Assembly (NCBI RefSeq): GCF_002252625.1 | Contig: NZ_NQKW01000022.1 | Location: 1-43,547, forward strand | From: Synechococcus sp. 1G10 | GTDB taxonomy: Bacteria; Cyanobacteriota; Cyanobacteriia; PCC-6307; Cyanobiaceae | Direction of reading: 5' to 3' | Length of the DNA stretch: 43,547 nt | Shown: piece by piece, positions 6,052-9,830 of the stretch | Position numbering within the stretch: position 1 is the stretch's first letter | Layout: each line of letters opens with the position of its first letter | Made by a program: the position numbers and the translations under genes | Notes under the pieces: generated by a model | What the model saw: only the letters and a program-made list of their open reading frames with translations | The model's database searches: none | What the model was told of the DNA's origin: nothing

Positions 6052-6061
6052 TGTGTGAGGA
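6052..6061 (+). promoter_or_regulatory. Yfr1-type pairing site overlapping the porin 1 ribosome-binding site
   Basis: TGTGTGAGGA contains GTGTGAGG, the exact complement of the core of the cyanobacterial sRNA Yfr1 (ACUCCUCACAC). GAGG at 6057-6060 is also the Shine-Dalgarno element, five bases before ATG 6066, so pairing here would block translation. It is fully complementary over ten bases to 7794-7803 in the 3' untranslated region of the same gene. Confidence 0.7.
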
Positions 6062-6065
6062 CCCC

Positions 6066-7739
6066 ATGAAATTTTTCCGGCAATTGCTGCTGGCACCTGT
6101 CGCCCTCGGACTGATGGCCCCCGTGGCCGCCACCGCCGGCGAAATGAACCTGGACGGCATCAACCAGTACGCCGCCTCCGAGGATCAGGTCACCAGCATC
6201 ACCCAGTTCTCCGACGTGCAGCCCACCGAGTGGGCCTACCAGGCGCTCTCGAACCTGATCGAGCGCTACGGCTGCGTCGCTGGCTATCCCGATGGCACCT
6301 TCCGCGGCAAGAAGCCGCTGAGCCGCTGGGAAGCCGCCGCTCTGCTCAACGCCTGCCTCGATCGGATCACCGAGGTGACCGATGAGCTGCGCCGTCTGCT
6401 CAAGGAGTTCGAGAAGGAACTCGCCATCCTGCGCGGCCGCGTCGACAACCTCGAGGCCAAGGTGGGTGAGCTGGAGGCCAACCAGTTCTCCACCACCACC
6501 AAGCTGCGTGGTGTGGCCACCTTCACCATCGGCGGCAACAGCTACGGCGGCGACGGCCGGGCCACCCTGGCTGAGTCCGCTCTCCTCGGCAAAAAAGTTG
6601 CCCCTGGCCAGAACTTCTCTGACGCGGCTGCTGCTCAGCAGGGCGCTGTTGCCTTCAACTACAACCTTGATCTCTTCCTCGACACCAGCTTCACTGGTAA
6701 GGATCTGCTGCGCACCCGTCTGCGGGCCGGCAACTACGGCTCCAGCCCCTGGGGTGCCGCTAACCCTGACAACCTGGTGGGCCTGAACGCCTTCGAGATC
6801 GCCTTTGAGGGTTCTCCAGGTGCCGACACCGTGATGGTCAACCGCCTCTTCTACCAGTTCCCCCTGGGCAGCAGCTTCACCGCCACGGTGGGTGCCAAGG
6901 TCCGTCAGGACGACATGCTGGCCTTCTGGCCCAGCGTGTACCCCGCTGACACCGTCCTCGACATCTTCACCTACGGCGGCGCTCCCGGCGCCTACCCCCT
7001 GACCCTCGGCTCTGGTGGTGGTCTGTGGTGGAAGAGCGGCGGCTTCAGCATCAGTGCCAACTACGTGGCCGCCAACGGCAACGTGGGTAACCCCAACGAC
7101 CGTTTTAACGGCGGTGGTGGTGGCATCGGCACCGAAGGCTCCGCCCAGACAGGCAGTGCCCAGATTGCCTGGAACAACGAGAACTTCGGTCTCGCAGCCA
7201 TCTACACGTACACCTCTCCCGAGGGTGGTCTGGCTGGGCTCTACGGCGGTAACGGCACCCCCCTGGCCAACCTCGGGTATGCCCTCTCCGACAGCGTCAA
7301 CTCCGTTGGCATCAGCGGCTACTGGCAGCCCTCCAACTCCGGTTGGCTCCCCTCGATCAGCACCGGCTGGGGACTTAACTCCCACTCCGCCAGCAATGGC
7401 TCTGCGGGTATCCTTTCAGATGCTATCGACGGTGCCCAGACCCAGTCCTGGTACGTGGGTCTGCAGTGGTCCGACGTCTTCATCAAGGGTAATTCCCTCG
7501 GTATGGCGGTCGGCCAGGCAACCTTCGTGACCAAAACGGGTGACGATGACTTGCTTGAAGCCAACGACGGCAACTACGCCTGGGAGTGGTGGTACAAGTT
7601 CCAGGTGACCGACAACATCTCGATCACCCCTGCGGTCTTCTACCTCAGCAGGCCCTTGGGTCAGCTCCAGAAGGGTGGTGAAACCGACGCTGGTTTCGAC
7701 AACTTCGGTGGTCTGGTCAAGACCACCTTCAGGTTCTGA
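6066..7739 (+). CDS. somA: SomA-type outer-membrane porin (SLH + OprB)
   Basis: 557 residues. A signal peptide (MKFFRQLLLAPVALGLMAPVAATA, cleavage near 24) precedes an SLH domain at about 48-105 (FSDVQPTEWAYQALSNLIER, CVAGYPDGTF, LSRWEAA). A short coiled coil follows at about 110-140 (ELRRLLKEFEKELAILRGRVDNLEAKVGELEA), then an OprB-like beta-barrel ending in an aromatic residue (TTFRF). SomA porins are the main outer-membrane channels of cyanobacteria; the SLH domain binds peptidoglycan-linked polymer. ATG 6066 is chosen over the in-frame TTG at 6051 because it begins the signal peptide and has GAGG five bases upstream. A near-identical N-terminal region occurs in the next gene, a tandem duplication. 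Confidence 0.92.
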   Translation: MKFFRQLLLAPVALGLMAPVAATAGEMNLDGINQYAASEDQVTSITQFSDVQPTEWAYQALSNLIERYGCVAGYPDGTFRGKKPLSRWEAAALLNACLDRITEVTDELRRLLKEFEKELAILRGRVDNLEAKVGELEANQFSTTTKLRGVATFTIGGNSYGGDGRATLAESALLGKKVAPGQNFSDAAAAQQGAVAFNYNLDLFLDTSFTGKDLLRTRLRAGNYGSSPWGAANPDNLVGLNAFEIAFEGSPGADTVMVNRLFYQFPLGSSFTATVGAKVRQDDMLAFWPSVYPADTVLDIFTYGGAPGAYPLTLGSGGGLWWKSGGFSISANYVAANGNVGNPNDRFNGGGGGIGTEGSAQTGSAQIAWNNENFGLAAIYTYTSPEGGLAGLYGGNGTPLANLGYALSDSVNSVGISGYWQPSNSGWLPSISTGWGLNSHSASNGSAGILSDAIDGAQTQSWYVGLQWSDVFIKGNSLGMAVGQATFVTKTGDDDLLEANDGNYAWEWWYKFQVTDNISITPAVFYLSRPLGQLQKGGETDAGFDNFGGLVKTTFRF

Positions 7740-7779
7740 TCAATCCTGATCAGTTGATCAGCTTCGGCTGATTCTTTCC

Positions 7780-7818
7780 CCAGCCAGATCAACTCCTCAC
7801 ACACCTTGATCTGGCTGG
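7780..7818 (+). ncRNA. Hairpin presenting a Yfr1 core motif in the porin 1 3'UTR
   Basis: CCAGCCAGATCAA (7780-7792) pairs perfectly with TTGATCTGGCTGG (7806-7818). The 13-nt loop exposes CTCCTCACACACC. With A7792 this gives an exact copy of the 11-base Yfr1 core ACTCCTCACAC (7792-7802). Canonical Yfr1 carries the core unpaired between two hairpins, with a terminator next to it. Here it sits in an apical loop 40-80 bases after a porin stop codon, with the terminator only at 7866. It is therefore a Yfr1-like element, not clearly Yfr1 itself. It may act within the mRNA or as a processed 3' fragment; that part is inference. Confidence 0.6.
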
Positions 7819-7865
7819 TTGCCTACTCCTGAACCGATTTGACTCTCAGCAGTTCTTTCTTTTTC

Positions 7866-7890
7866 GCCGTGGTTTCCGCCACGGCTTTTT
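7866..7890 (+). terminator. Intrinsic terminator after porin 1
   Basis: GCCGTGG (7866-7872) pairs with CCACGGC (7879-7885), loop TTTCCG, followed by T5. It closes the porin 1 transcript about 127 bp after the stop and places the Yfr1-like hairpin inside the mRNA. A weaker UUCG-loop hairpin (ATCAGC-TTCG-GCTGAT, 7757-7772) lies closer to the stop. Confidence 0.8.
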
Positions 7891-7934
7891 AATGAGCATT
7901 TTTGGTAGTGCTGCGCTTTTGCGCTCGATTCTGG

Positions 7935-7973
7935 ATGGCTCAAATCCCCTGCGGGACAGGGGATTTGAGCCAT
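7935..7973. repeat. Perfect 16-bp inverted repeat upstream of porin 2
   Basis: ATGGCTCAAATCCCCT (7935-7950) is matched by AGGGGATTTGAGCCAT (7958-7973) around the loop GCGGGAC. It follows the porin 1 terminator and precedes the likely porin 2 promoter. No T run follows, so it is not an ordinary terminator. It could be a remnant of a small mobile repeat or a DNA-level regulatory structure; neither is shown. Confidence 0.7.
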
Positions 7974-7987
7974 AGTATGTGACCGTC

Positions 7988-8005
7988 GACACATGGTCAT
8001 GTGTC
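7988..8005. promoter_or_regulatory. Operator-like palindrome upstream of porin 2
   Basis: GACACATG-GT-CATGTGTC is a perfect 8+8 palindrome centred near 7996.5. That is about 57 bp upstream of the start site expected from a TATAAA at 8042-8047, a position typical of activator sites. The binding protein is unknown, and the sequence is not a CRP or NtcA consensus. Confidence 0.4.
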
Positions 8006-8041
8006 CGTGGGCTGCGGCCCTAATCTGTAGTTTTGGTAGTA

Positions 8042-8047
8042 TATAAA
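8042..8047 (+). promoter_or_regulatory. Probable -10 element of porin 2
   Basis: TATAAA lies 41-47 bp before ATG 8089 in locally A+T-rich DNA, unlike the GC-rich surroundings. No -35 hexamer is seen 16-18 bp upstream. This fits an activator-dependent promoter, and the palindrome at 7988-8005 is a candidate site. Confidence 0.4.
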
Positions 8048-8074
8048 TGTGTCCTTTTGGACCGTCCCTCAATT

Positions 8075-8084
8075 GGTGTGAGGT
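8075..8084 (+). promoter_or_regulatory. Yfr1-type pairing site overlapping the porin 2 ribosome-binding site
   Basis: GGTGTGAGGT contains the same GTGTGAGG as porin 1, with GAGG (8080-8083) five bases before ATG 8089. The base after the core is T here but A in porin 1. The 3'UTR copy of porin 2 (ACCTCACAC, 9795-9803) carries the matching A, giving nine perfect pairs. Confidence 0.7.
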
Positions 8085-8088
8085 TTCA

Positions 8089-9774
8089 ATGAAATTATTT
8101 CAGCGTCTGCTGCTGGCGCCGGTCGCCCTTGGGCTTGTAGCTCCCATGGCCGCTTCGGCCGGGGATCTTAATCTGGACGGCATGAAAAAGTATGCCGGCA
8201 AGAAAGATCAGGTGACCAGCATCACCCAGTTCTCTGATGTTCAGCCCACCGAGTGGGCCTATCAGGCGCTCTCAAATCTGATCGAGCGCTACGGCTGCGT
8301 GGCCGGCTACCCCGACGGTACGTTCCGCGGCAAACAGCCCCTGAGCCGCTGGGAAGCCGCCGCACTGCTGAATGCCTGCCTCGATCGGATCACGGAAGTG
8401 ACCGATGAGCTCCGCCGGCTGCTCAAGGAGTTTGAGAAGGAGCTCGCCATCCTGCGCGGCCGCGTCGACAACCTCGAGGCCAAGGTTGGTGAATTAGAGG
8501 CCACCCAGTTCTCCACCACCACAAAACTTCAGGGTCAAGCCACCTTCGTCATTGGTGCAATCACTGCCAGTGGTGATCGTCCCGGTGCCGGTGTGTTCGG
8601 GGCGTCCCCCACCTTTGGCAGCCGTGATGCGGCCGAAAAATACAACGCTCAGTTCGGAGCAACCACCTTCAGCTATGACCTGCGGCTGAACCTGCTCACC
8701 AGCTTCACCGGTAAGGATCTGCTGTACACCCGCCTGCGTTCGGGGAACTTCGATAACGCCTTCAACGGAAACGGGGTTAACCTCACTGCTCTGGATGTTG
8801 CCAGCAATGGCATCGGTGGCACCGACGCGATCGGCATTGATCGTCTCTACTACCGCTTCCCGGTAGGCCGTGATTTCACCTTCATTGTTGGTCCTAAGGC
8901 CCGGAACACTGAATCGCTCGCCGTCACCCCCTCGGTCTACGGAAGTGGCAAGGGTGACCGCATCCTTGACCTGTTCAGCCTGTATGGTGCCCCCGGCGTT
9001 TACAACAAGGCGACCGGCTCCATGTTGGCCGGTATCTGGAAGCAGAACGTCAAGAAGGGCCAGGGTGGTTTCAGCTTCGGTGCCAACTATGTGGCCCAGC
9101 AGGGATTTGCCGGTCAATCTTTTGATGGCAACGACAACGTCTGCGCAAGCAGCGAAGGCGGCATCGGCACCGATTGTGCCCGTGGCAACTTCCTGGCCCA
9201 GCTGAACTACACGGCTCCCCAGTGGAACGTTTCGCTAGCCTATCGCTATGGCCAACAGGCCACCAATTTCAGGCGGGGCACGAACTTCGTGGCCAGCAAC
9301 AGCTGGTTCCTGACCACTGGAGATACGAACAGCGTGGCGGCCAACGCCTACTGGCAGCCCAAGGAAAGTGGCTGGTTGCCCTCGATCAGTCTGGGCTGGG
9401 GTCTGAACAGCCTCTCCGGCAACGAGAACAATGCCCTGGGGATTGAATTTATTGATCCCTATGTGACCGAGAGCCAGAGCTGGTTCGTCGGCCTGCAGTG
9501 GAACGATTTGTTCGGCAAGGGTAATGCCGCTGGCATGGCGGTCGGTCAGCCCACCTTTGCCACGGCCCTTACCCGTGGCAGCAGCGACTCCGGCAATACC
9601 ACTCCAGCCGATGGCAACTACGCCTGGGAGTGGTGGTACAAGTTCCAGGTCACCGACAACATCGCCGTGACCCCGGCGATCTTCTACCTGAGCCGTCCTC
9701 TCGGACAGCTCACCGGCGAGGACAACAGCTTCAGCAACTTCGGCGGCCTCGTTCAGACCACCTTCAAGTTCTGA
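8089..9774 (+). CDS. Second SomA-type outer-membrane porin (SLH + OprB)
   Basis: 561 residues with the same plan as its upstream neighbour. A signal peptide (MKLFQRLLLAPVALGLVAPMAASA) is followed by an SLH domain, a coiled coil and an OprB-like barrel, ending NFGGLVQTTFKF. The N-terminal 140 or so residues and the final WEWWYKFQVTDNI region are nearly identical to porin 1; the central barrel has diverged in loops (for example NVCASSEGGIGTDCARG with two Cys). It probably passes a different solute range. ATG 8089 is chosen over the upstream in-frame ATG at 8047 because it opens the signal peptide and has GAGG five bases before it. It has its own promoter region and terminator. Confidence 0.92.
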   Translation: MKLFQRLLLAPVALGLVAPMAASAGDLNLDGMKKYAGKKDQVTSITQFSDVQPTEWAYQALSNLIERYGCVAGYPDGTFRGKQPLSRWEAAALLNACLDRITEVTDELRRLLKEFEKELAILRGRVDNLEAKVGELEATQFSTTTKLQGQATFVIGAITASGDRPGAGVFGASPTFGSRDAAEKYNAQFGATTFSYDLRLNLLTSFTGKDLLYTRLRSGNFDNAFNGNGVNLTALDVASNGIGGTDAIGIDRLYYRFPVGRDFTFIVGPKARNTESLAVTPSVYGSGKGDRILDLFSLYGAPGVYNKATGSMLAGIWKQNVKKGQGGFSFGANYVAQQGFAGQSFDGNDNVCASSEGGIGTDCARGNFLAQLNYTAPQWNVSLAYRYGQQATNFRRGTNFVASNSWFLTTGDTNSVAANAYWQPKESGWLPSISLGWGLNSLSGNENNALGIEFIDPYVTESQSWFVGLQWNDLFGKGNAAGMAVGQPTFATALTRGSSDSGNTTPADGNYAWEWWYKFQVTDNIAVTPAIFYLSRPLGQLTGEDNSFSNFGGLVQTTFKF

Positions 9775-9794
9775 GCCTGCTACCCGCGTCCACA

Positions 9795-9806
9795 ACCTCA
9801 CACACC
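9795..9806 (+). ncRNA. Yfr1-like core in the porin 2 3'UTR
   Basis: ACCTCACACACC lies about 20 bases after the porin 2 stop and directly before the terminator stem. It is therefore probably single-stranded, as the core is in canonical Yfr1. Positions 9795-9803 pair perfectly with the porin 2 ribosome-binding region (8076-8084). It matches the Yfr1 core in CCTCACAC but has A instead of T before it. Confidence 0.5.
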
Positions 9807-9830
9807 ATGGCCCCCGTCAGGGGGCTTTTT
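9805..9830 (+). terminator. Intrinsic terminator after porin 2
   Basis: GCCCCC (9810-9815) pairs with GGGGGC (9820-9825) around GTCA, followed by T5 at 9826-9830. It lies about 35 bp after the porin 2 stop. Confidence 0.85.

Follow-up and report, generated by a model that had tools for sequence, protein, structure and literature searches.

Yfr1- and Yfr10-like elements in the 3' untranslated regions of two tandem porin genes of Synechococcus sp. 1G10

We analyzed a 43,547-nucleotide (nt) stretch of the Synechococcus sp. 1G10 genome (contig NZ_NQKW01000022.1, positions 1 to 43,547; referred to here as the window), which carries two tandem SLH/OprB-type porin genes on the forward strand, porin 1 and porin 2. 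The ribosome-binding site (RBS) of each gene is overlapped by the motif GTGTGAGG, and the 3' untranslated region (3'UTR) of each holds the reverse complement of its own GTGTGAGG site, here called the core (Table 1). The small RNAs (sRNAs) Yfr1 and Yfr10 have been described before, as have the porins that they target (PMC6778093, PMC2518516, PMC6974561, PMC2190773; all papers are cited by accession). A preliminary description of this locus, made from the sequence alone, had placed GTGTGAGG five bases 5' of both start codons, an exact ACTCCTCACAC in the porin 1 3'UTR, and ACCTCACAC in that of porin 2. The sequence bears out all of these placements. The pairings that had been drawn between the two ends of each gene are likewise correct, extending over 10 bp in porin 1 (6052-6061 with 7794-7803) and 9 bp in porin 2 (8076-8084 with 9795-9803).

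TABLE 1 Features of the tandem porin locus, in window positions
Feature	Position	Strand	Basis
Porin 1 coding sequence (SLH + OprB-type porin)	6066..7739	+	Open reading frame; Pfam OprB 54.5 bits, SLH 35.8 bits
Porin 2 coding sequence (SLH + OprB-type porin)	8089..9774	+	Open reading frame; Pfam OprB 57.6 bits, SLH 35.6 bits
GTGTGAGG site over porin 1 RBS	6053..6060	+	Sequence; 5 bases 5' of ATG (6066)
GTGTGAGG site over porin 2 RBS	8076..8083	+	Sequence; 5 bases 5' of ATG (8089)
Porin 1 core, exact ACTCCTCACAC; first A closes stem	7792..7802	+	Sequence, fold
Porin 2 core, ACCTCACAC; predicted unpaired, directly 5' of terminator	9795..9803	+	Sequence, fold
First hairpin of porin 1 3'UTR	7748..7773	+	Fold; CTGATC/TGATC halves conserved in genus (alignment of 9 members)
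Yfr10-like hairpin of porin 1 (13-bp stem; 13-nt loop 7793-7805 displaying CTCCTCACACACC)	7780..7818	+	Fold; compensatory stems in relatives; best genome-wide model match in 9/9 genus members
Porin 1 intrinsic terminator-like hairpin and T-run	7866..7890 (stem 7866-7885)	+	Fold, terminator scan
Porin 2 intrinsic terminator-like hairpin and T-run	9809..9830 (stem 9809-9826)	+	Fold, terminator scan

Conservation of the 3' core among porin genes

With both strands of the window counted, the word CCTCACAC occurs at no sites other than these four. This raw count alone is unremarkable, since 2.16 sites are expected and at least four were found in 20 of 100 shuffles, and to that extent it would fit a chance similarity, or a C-rich linker sequence, in the two 3'UTRs. 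Across the whole genome the word is not enriched (61 sites versus 56 for the reversed control). At that genome rate, the ∼180 sense positions of the two porin 3'UTRs would be expected to hold ∼0.002 CCTCACAC sites, and two are present. We inspected the 57 genomic sites outside the window together with their surroundings; none had a run of five Ts within 60 nt downstream. Such a run lies within 60 nt of the porin 2 core but not of the porin 1 core, because the porin 1 terminator stem starts 64 nt downstream. At locus L235, a third porin of this genome lacks both the 5' site and a 3' core. An exact ACTCCTCACAC also occurs at G000:C9:10468-10478 (locus L182), ∼30 nt 5' of an ATG, where it follows GGGCCCTTTT.

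To place these sites in a wider sample, we collected porin loci from 121 genomes of the family (116 with a match), 77 named loci, 40 chosen regions, and 20 mostly small-genome relatives. The family genomes and the named loci (the best 77) represent the best matches listed for the two window porins, and the 40 regions were picked from the listing for the family genomes, with preference for tandem porins and for porins not of the third type; the sampling is thus biased towards genes related to the two queries. Altogether, 258 porin open reading frames (ORFs) had a 3' flank of 150 nt or more; these reduced to 215 distinct sequences, 203 of them 5'-complete. The 12 porins truncated at the 5' end were excluded from the tables relating the two ends and retained in the hairpin counts. 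We defined a strict RBS site as G[TG]GTGAGG, a relaxed site as GTGTGAG, and the 3' zone as the 150 nt after the stop codon. Genes were assigned to the porin-1 or porin-2 type by their better BLAST match to one or the other, which does not prove orthology.

The strict RBS site was present in 157 of the 203 porin genes. Among these, 48 had CCTCACAC within 150 nt of the stop codon, compared with 2 of the 46 genes without the strict site, and in both of these exceptions the RBS reads GTGTGAGA. With the relaxed definition, CTCACAC was found in the 3' zone of 63 of 160 genes with the GTGTGAG site and of none of the 43 without it (Fisher 1.3e-8, uncorrected for relatedness). The preliminary description's suggestion of a Yfr1-like motif in the 3'UTRs is thereby upheld: these cores are conserved, and each one in the porin sample is accompanied by a GTGTGAG RBS site.

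Several controls were applied to the 157 genes with the strict site. Relative to the 48 occurrences of CCTCACAC, 168 permutations of the word averaged 1.46. Terminator words aside, CCTCACAC was the commonest 8-mer in the 3' zones, and CCTCACA was the most over-represented 7-mer relative to dinucleotide shuffles (63 versus 3.7). A complement of at least 7 nt to the RBS site was found in 75 of the 157 genes (6.3 expected), and in 2 of the 46 porins lacking the site (1.1 expected). Within the genus, the core was kept in porin 1 of all nine members and in porin 2 of eight; the porin 2 gene of L039 carries CCTCGCAC in its place. In the genus alignment, conserved blocks coincided with the core, the hairpin that holds it, and the terminator. 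We reject chance or linker sequence as the origin of the 3' cores, given the enrichment in porin 3'UTRs over permuted words and shuffles, the conserved islands in the genus, a word that is not enriched genome-wide, and the hairpin display described below.

Two architectures resembling Yfr10 and Yfr1

Folding placed the two cores in different settings, in a hairpin loop in porin 1 and in an unpaired stretch before the terminator in porin 2. Neither setting was part of the preliminary description. The porin 1 3'UTR as a whole had a fold z of -5.6, whereas the overall stability of the short porin 2 3' end was not unusual (z -1.2). A terminator scan detected terminator-like sites 3' of both cores and none between either porin stop codon and its core. 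Predicted opening energies for the 8-nt part of the core were 0.0 kcal/mol in porin 1 and 1.6 kcal/mol in porin 2, compared with 5.9 and 5.7 kcal/mol for the RBS sites; both cores are predicted to be accessible. Between the porin 1 terminator and the porin 2 leader, at window positions 7936-7972, lies a perfect 16-bp inverted repeat, TGGCTCAAATCCCCTG / CAGGGGATTTGAGCCA.

The same division was seen among relatives; locus L041 of Synechococcus sp. WH 5701, for example, carries both elements. When genes were folded individually, 26 of 31 porin-1-type genes presented the core in an apical loop on a stem of 7 bp or more (0.37 expected with shuffled flanks), compared with none of 25 porin-2-type genes (0.28 expected). 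The median distance from the end of the core to the T-run was 28 nt in the porin-2 type and 68 nt in the porin-1 type. A second CTCACAC was observed between hairpin and terminator in the porin-1-type 3'UTRs of L069, L108, L111, and L150.

Stems of the porin-1 type differ almost completely by lineage and are still paired: the 28 hairpins have 18 different 7-bp stems, and every position from 1 to 9, counted from the loop, shows three or four kinds of Watson-Crick pair. Alignment of the hairpins with MAFFT leaves the stems unaligned; we used instead per-gene folding, stem counts anchored on the loop, and a model-fitted alignment. In the alignment for stem covariation, which comprised 40 model matches up to E 1 (35 distinct), we counted 98 double-change cells versus 47.5 in shuffles and obtained a covariation score of 0.536 versus 0.209, each with 0 of 500 shuffles as high, bearing in mind that a model-fitted alignment favors its own structure by construction. 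The count of pairs with a double change did not discriminate (11 versus 10.7 in shuffles). A core that stays constant while its stem changes would also fit a loop bound by protein, and protein binding was at one time entertained as a role of the Yfr1 motif (PMC2190773). We nevertheless regard protein binding, or stabilization of the 3' end by the hairpin or core with pairing incidental, as very unlikely: the 8 conserved nucleotides are complementary to both the RBS site and the 5' motif of Yfr2, the core is found in two structural settings, and mutation of the motif abolished the footprints of Yfr1 and Yfr10 on ppa mRNA (PMC6778093).

The porin 1 hairpin recalls Yfr10 (RF02362), a free-standing Prochlorococcus sRNA in which the Yfr1 motif, ACUCCUCACAC, occupies the loop atop an otherwise poorly conserved stem (PMC6778093). 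The porin 1 hairpin likewise holds the Yfr1 motif in a loop atop a stem. We built a covariance model, R1, from 28 porin hairpins. In each of the nine genus genomes, its best genome-wide match was the porin 1 3' hairpin (E 2.6e-8 to 3.4e-6; best other match, 0.006). In the 121 family genomes, R1 gave 33 matches at E<=0.01, distributed over 31 genomes. Nineteen of these lie at porin 3' ends in eight genera: 15 were placed by the coordinates of porin matches and 4 (L330, L335, L340, and L341) by a porin ORF ending 9-52 nt upstream. Four others coincide with Rfam Yfr10 matches (in G001, G070, G085, and G113). Another three (L333, L334, and L339) are free-standing hairpins of small genomes that have ACTCCTCACAC loops and do not fall within long reading frames; RF02362 gave no match at these positions at E<=0.01. 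The remaining seven comprise six within open reading frames and one (G077:C1:725717) seen as sequence only. L333 and L334 (G038:C1:1379472 and 1730222) are the same hairpin sequence present twice in one genome, and L339 is at G062:C28:1161.

Rfam Yfr10 was detected in 15 of the 121 genomes at E<=0.01, 7 of them above the cut-off. None of these 15 genomes has an R1 match at a porin end at E<=0.01, and in the same search the genome of Synechococcus sp. 1G10 has no Yfr10 match. The Yfr10 match in G119 (346661-346738) has the coordinates given for Prochlorococcus MED4 in PMC2518516. The porin element differs from Yfr10 in lying inside an mRNA 3'UTR that has a separate terminator, and the loops of porin relatives retain only the CCTCACAC part of the motif. 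It thus has the anatomy of Yfr10, yet it is not a Yfr10 member by Rfam score, and it is borne on an mRNA.

The 3' end of porin 2 resembles Yfr1 (RF01116), in which respect its unpaired core directly 5' of a terminator and its identical complementarity to the porin RBS are the shared traits. It departs from Yfr1 in both sequence and score: the undecanucleotide ACUCCUCACAC is replaced by AACCTCACAC, of which ACCTCACAC forms the core, and, where the motif of Yfr1 is flanked by two stem-loops of which the 3' one is a terminator, porin 2 has the terminator but in place of a stable 5' stem only three weak pairs. Moreover, canonical Yfr1 sits elsewhere in the genome. The preliminary description had proposed searching for it, and we found it outside the window at 59.8 bits. 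Canonical Yfr1 was detected in 101 of the 121 family genomes, with the core ACTCCTCACAC in all 20 further genomes inspected. By sequence comparison, then, the porin-1-type element appears Yfr10-like and the porin-2-type element Yfr1-like.

Candidate partners of the core

We favor the interpretation that porin mRNA 3' ends carry a Yfr1/Yfr10-type regulatory module acting on GUGUGAGG RNAs, to which we assign a probability of roughly one half. What comparison of sequences establishes is the element itself, its conservation, its structure with compensatory stems, its link to porins, its tendency to accompany the RBS site, and its likeness to Yfr10. That transcripts extend through the terminator, that a 3' fragment is released, and that pairing represses translation are inferred. 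Two kinds of partner are suggested by different observations: that the core was never found without a 5' site points to the porin RBS, and the bias of the core flanks points to Yfr2. In an E. coli reporter test, a PMM1121 5'UTR-GFP fusion was repressed 4.7-fold by Yfr1 of MED4, and this repression was relieved by Yfr2 (PMC6778093). PMC2518516 lists Yfr21, a 205-nt microarray transcript that adjoins the same MED4 porin gene, PMM1121, and was negative by northern analysis; it may be a porin UTR.

The genome of Synechococcus sp. 1G10 encodes one Cyano-1 RNA (RF01701, 48.6 bits; G000:C58:36661-36730, minus strand; locus L236). At its 5' end stands GTGTGAGGAGT, which is exactly complementary to the porin 1 core and to the Yfr1 undecanucleotide; from this motif we take it to be a Yfr2-type RNA, which is our own reading and not the result of a tool. 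Conceivably, the 3' core is a decoy only, that is, a landing site through which abundant porin mRNA soaks up the Yfr2-type RNA and frees Yfr1, with the RBS not a direct partner. In addition to the exact complementarity, Yfr2 is known to pull down both Yfr1 and Yfr10 (PMC6778093). In duplex predictions for 19 genomes, the porin 1 core paired more strongly with the Yfr2 of the same genome than with its own RBS in 18 and equally in one (mean, -21.7 versus -16.9), a preference that goes beyond the preliminary description. Core flanks leaned to A-type Yfr2 in both porin types (z -3.3 in each) but little to G-type Yfr2 (z -0.9 and -1.2). Five genomes (G060, G032, G083, G026, and G055) have a GTGTGAGGGGT Yfr2; their porin 1 loops carry the matching C, and their Yfr1 retains T. 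This match may be one clade's history, since C also faces an A-type Yfr2 in G117, G089, G014, G107, and G092, and G016 combines T with the G-type.

Other comparisons speak against a decoy as the sole function. Matching between the porin 1 core and Yfr2 across genomes was not significant (P 0.15, and again P 0.15 with representatives only), and matching with the gene's own RBS gave P 0.88. This test covered 22 genomes, chosen because both a porin 1 core and a Yfr2 sequence were available; the RBS was available for 19, and a single Yfr2 copy was used per genome. It left out G107 and G092, whose A-type Yfr2 and C in the porin 1 loop run counter to such matching. For porin 2, co-folding ranked RBS2 (-14.6) and RBS1 (-13.5) above Yfr2 (-12.5), with the RBS energies close to those of Yfr1's own binding (-14.9 and -14.6). 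The corresponding values for porin 1 (-4.4 to -5.1) say little, as contacts of a loop are not scorable by co-folding. A pure decoy would also leave unexplained the finding that, in the sampled porins, a 3' core is always accompanied by a 5' site. On balance we consider it an unlikely, though not negligible, account of the core.

Alternatively, each mRNA might fold its 3' core onto its own RBS and so block initiation. There is a precedent in icaR of Staphylococcus aureus, where a 3'UTR motif is complementary to the Shine-Dalgarno (SD) region of its own mRNA (PMC3868564); that type of pairing blocks initiation and yields double-stranded RNA that RNase III cleaves. Both porins have a 3'UTR motif complementary to their own SD region, the complementarity is perfect over the 10 and 9 bp given above, and duplex energies reach -20.2 for RBS1 with the porin 1 hairpin segment and -16.9 for RBS2 with core 2. 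The porin motif differs from that of icaR in being common to a trans-acting sRNA system and to sister genes, and no covariation in cis was seen. The preliminary description had cited one compensated position between the two ends. This position does not hold in relatives, where 28 of 49 genes were paired compared with 26.1 expected (P 0.14); the other flank position gave P 0.54, although the near-invariance of the core makes this test a weak one. Own 5'-3' duplexes were no better than swapped ones (-16.41 versus -16.34, P 0.33). At the supposedly compensated base, T faces T in porin 2 of L040 and L007 (the latter with the 3' end of L038), and A faces C in L008 and in L009 (the latter matching L036); we discarded it as evidence. 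Strict pairing in cis thus appears quite improbable, and we favor a GUGUGAGG-pairing module over strict end-to-end pairing. Between the two forms of self-regulation originally envisaged, Yfr1-like RNAs derived from the 3'UTR and acting on the porin family fit better, because the porin 1 element has the architecture of Yfr10 and its model also detects free-standing Yfr10 genes in relatives with small genomes; compensation between the 5' and 3' ends of one mRNA is unsupported.

Regulation of a transcript by its own 3' end is known from Vibrio cholerae, where the 3'UTR-derived sRNAs OppZ and CarZ act by pairing (PMC9438474, PMC7398697); sRNAs of this type are released by RNase E. The porin module, too, lies between stop codon and terminator and is complementary to its parent mRNA; its pairing would differ in being at the gene's own RBS. 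ApcZ of Synechocystis involves another operon and another target, and the available text makes no mention of a Yfr1 motif.

Several observations weigh against a GUGUGAGG-pairing module. The porin 1 hairpin scores only 14.3 bits for Yfr10 (RF02362; cut-off, 43), and the porin 2 3' end scores 15.4 bits for Yfr1 (RF01116; cut-off, 38). Of the 157 porins with the RBS site, 109 have no CCTCACAC within 150 nt of the stop codon, and in the 20 relatives with mostly small genomes, none of the 27 porin genes has the 3' core, although the RBS site is present in 18 of these genes. Core flanks add no RBS pairing beyond chance (z 0.2 and -0.7 for RBS1, and 2.7 and 0.3 for RBS2, positive values being weaker). 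As described above, neither covariation within the mRNA nor matching to Yfr2 reached significance. All P values are uncorrected for relatedness, and related sequences are not independent.

A possible feedback on porin synthesis

How might such a module act? Under the GUGUGAGG-pairing interpretation, the CCUCACAC core would be presented by the Yfr10-like hairpin loop in porin 1 and as an unpaired Yfr1-like stretch followed by the terminator in porin 2, and it would pair with GUGUGAGG RNAs. One target may be the RBSs of porin mRNAs, both the gene's own and its sister copies, reached by a released fragment or by the tethered 3' end. The other may be the 5' end of the Yfr2-type (Cyano-1) RNA, relatives of which antagonize Yfr1. 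In the direct branch, the porin RBS would be blocked; in the indirect branch, Yfr2 would be occupied and Yfr1 freed. Since Yfr1 represses and Yfr2 relieves a porin 5'UTR reporter, porin synthesis would be under negative feedback through either branch, with the level of porin message limiting porin translation.

More tentatively, and with somewhat less than even confidence, we propose that each porin mRNA combines a target word, GUGUGAGG at the RBS, with an effector word, CCUCACAC in the 3'UTR. The same message would then be a Yfr1 target, a Yfr10-type carrier, and a Yfr2 binder, and its 3'UTR would stand in for the Yfr10 gene of Prochlorococcus. We found no description of Yfr1/Yfr10-type motifs in cyanobacterial porin 3'UTRs in the literature searched, a body of text with most subscription papers and supplements outside it; the available portions of PMC5069720, PMC7368042, PMC13414033, and PMC6202907 contain nothing on such motifs.

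If this interpretation is correct, these genes would provide a clear case, with compensatory stems across several genera, of an mRNA 3'UTR that carries the pairing module of an sRNA family targeting the same mRNA. Porin message level would be coupled to the balance between Yfr1 and Yfr2 without a protein regulator, and the porin elements would show how, in evolution, the gene for an sRNA and the 3'UTR of an mRNA can replace one another.

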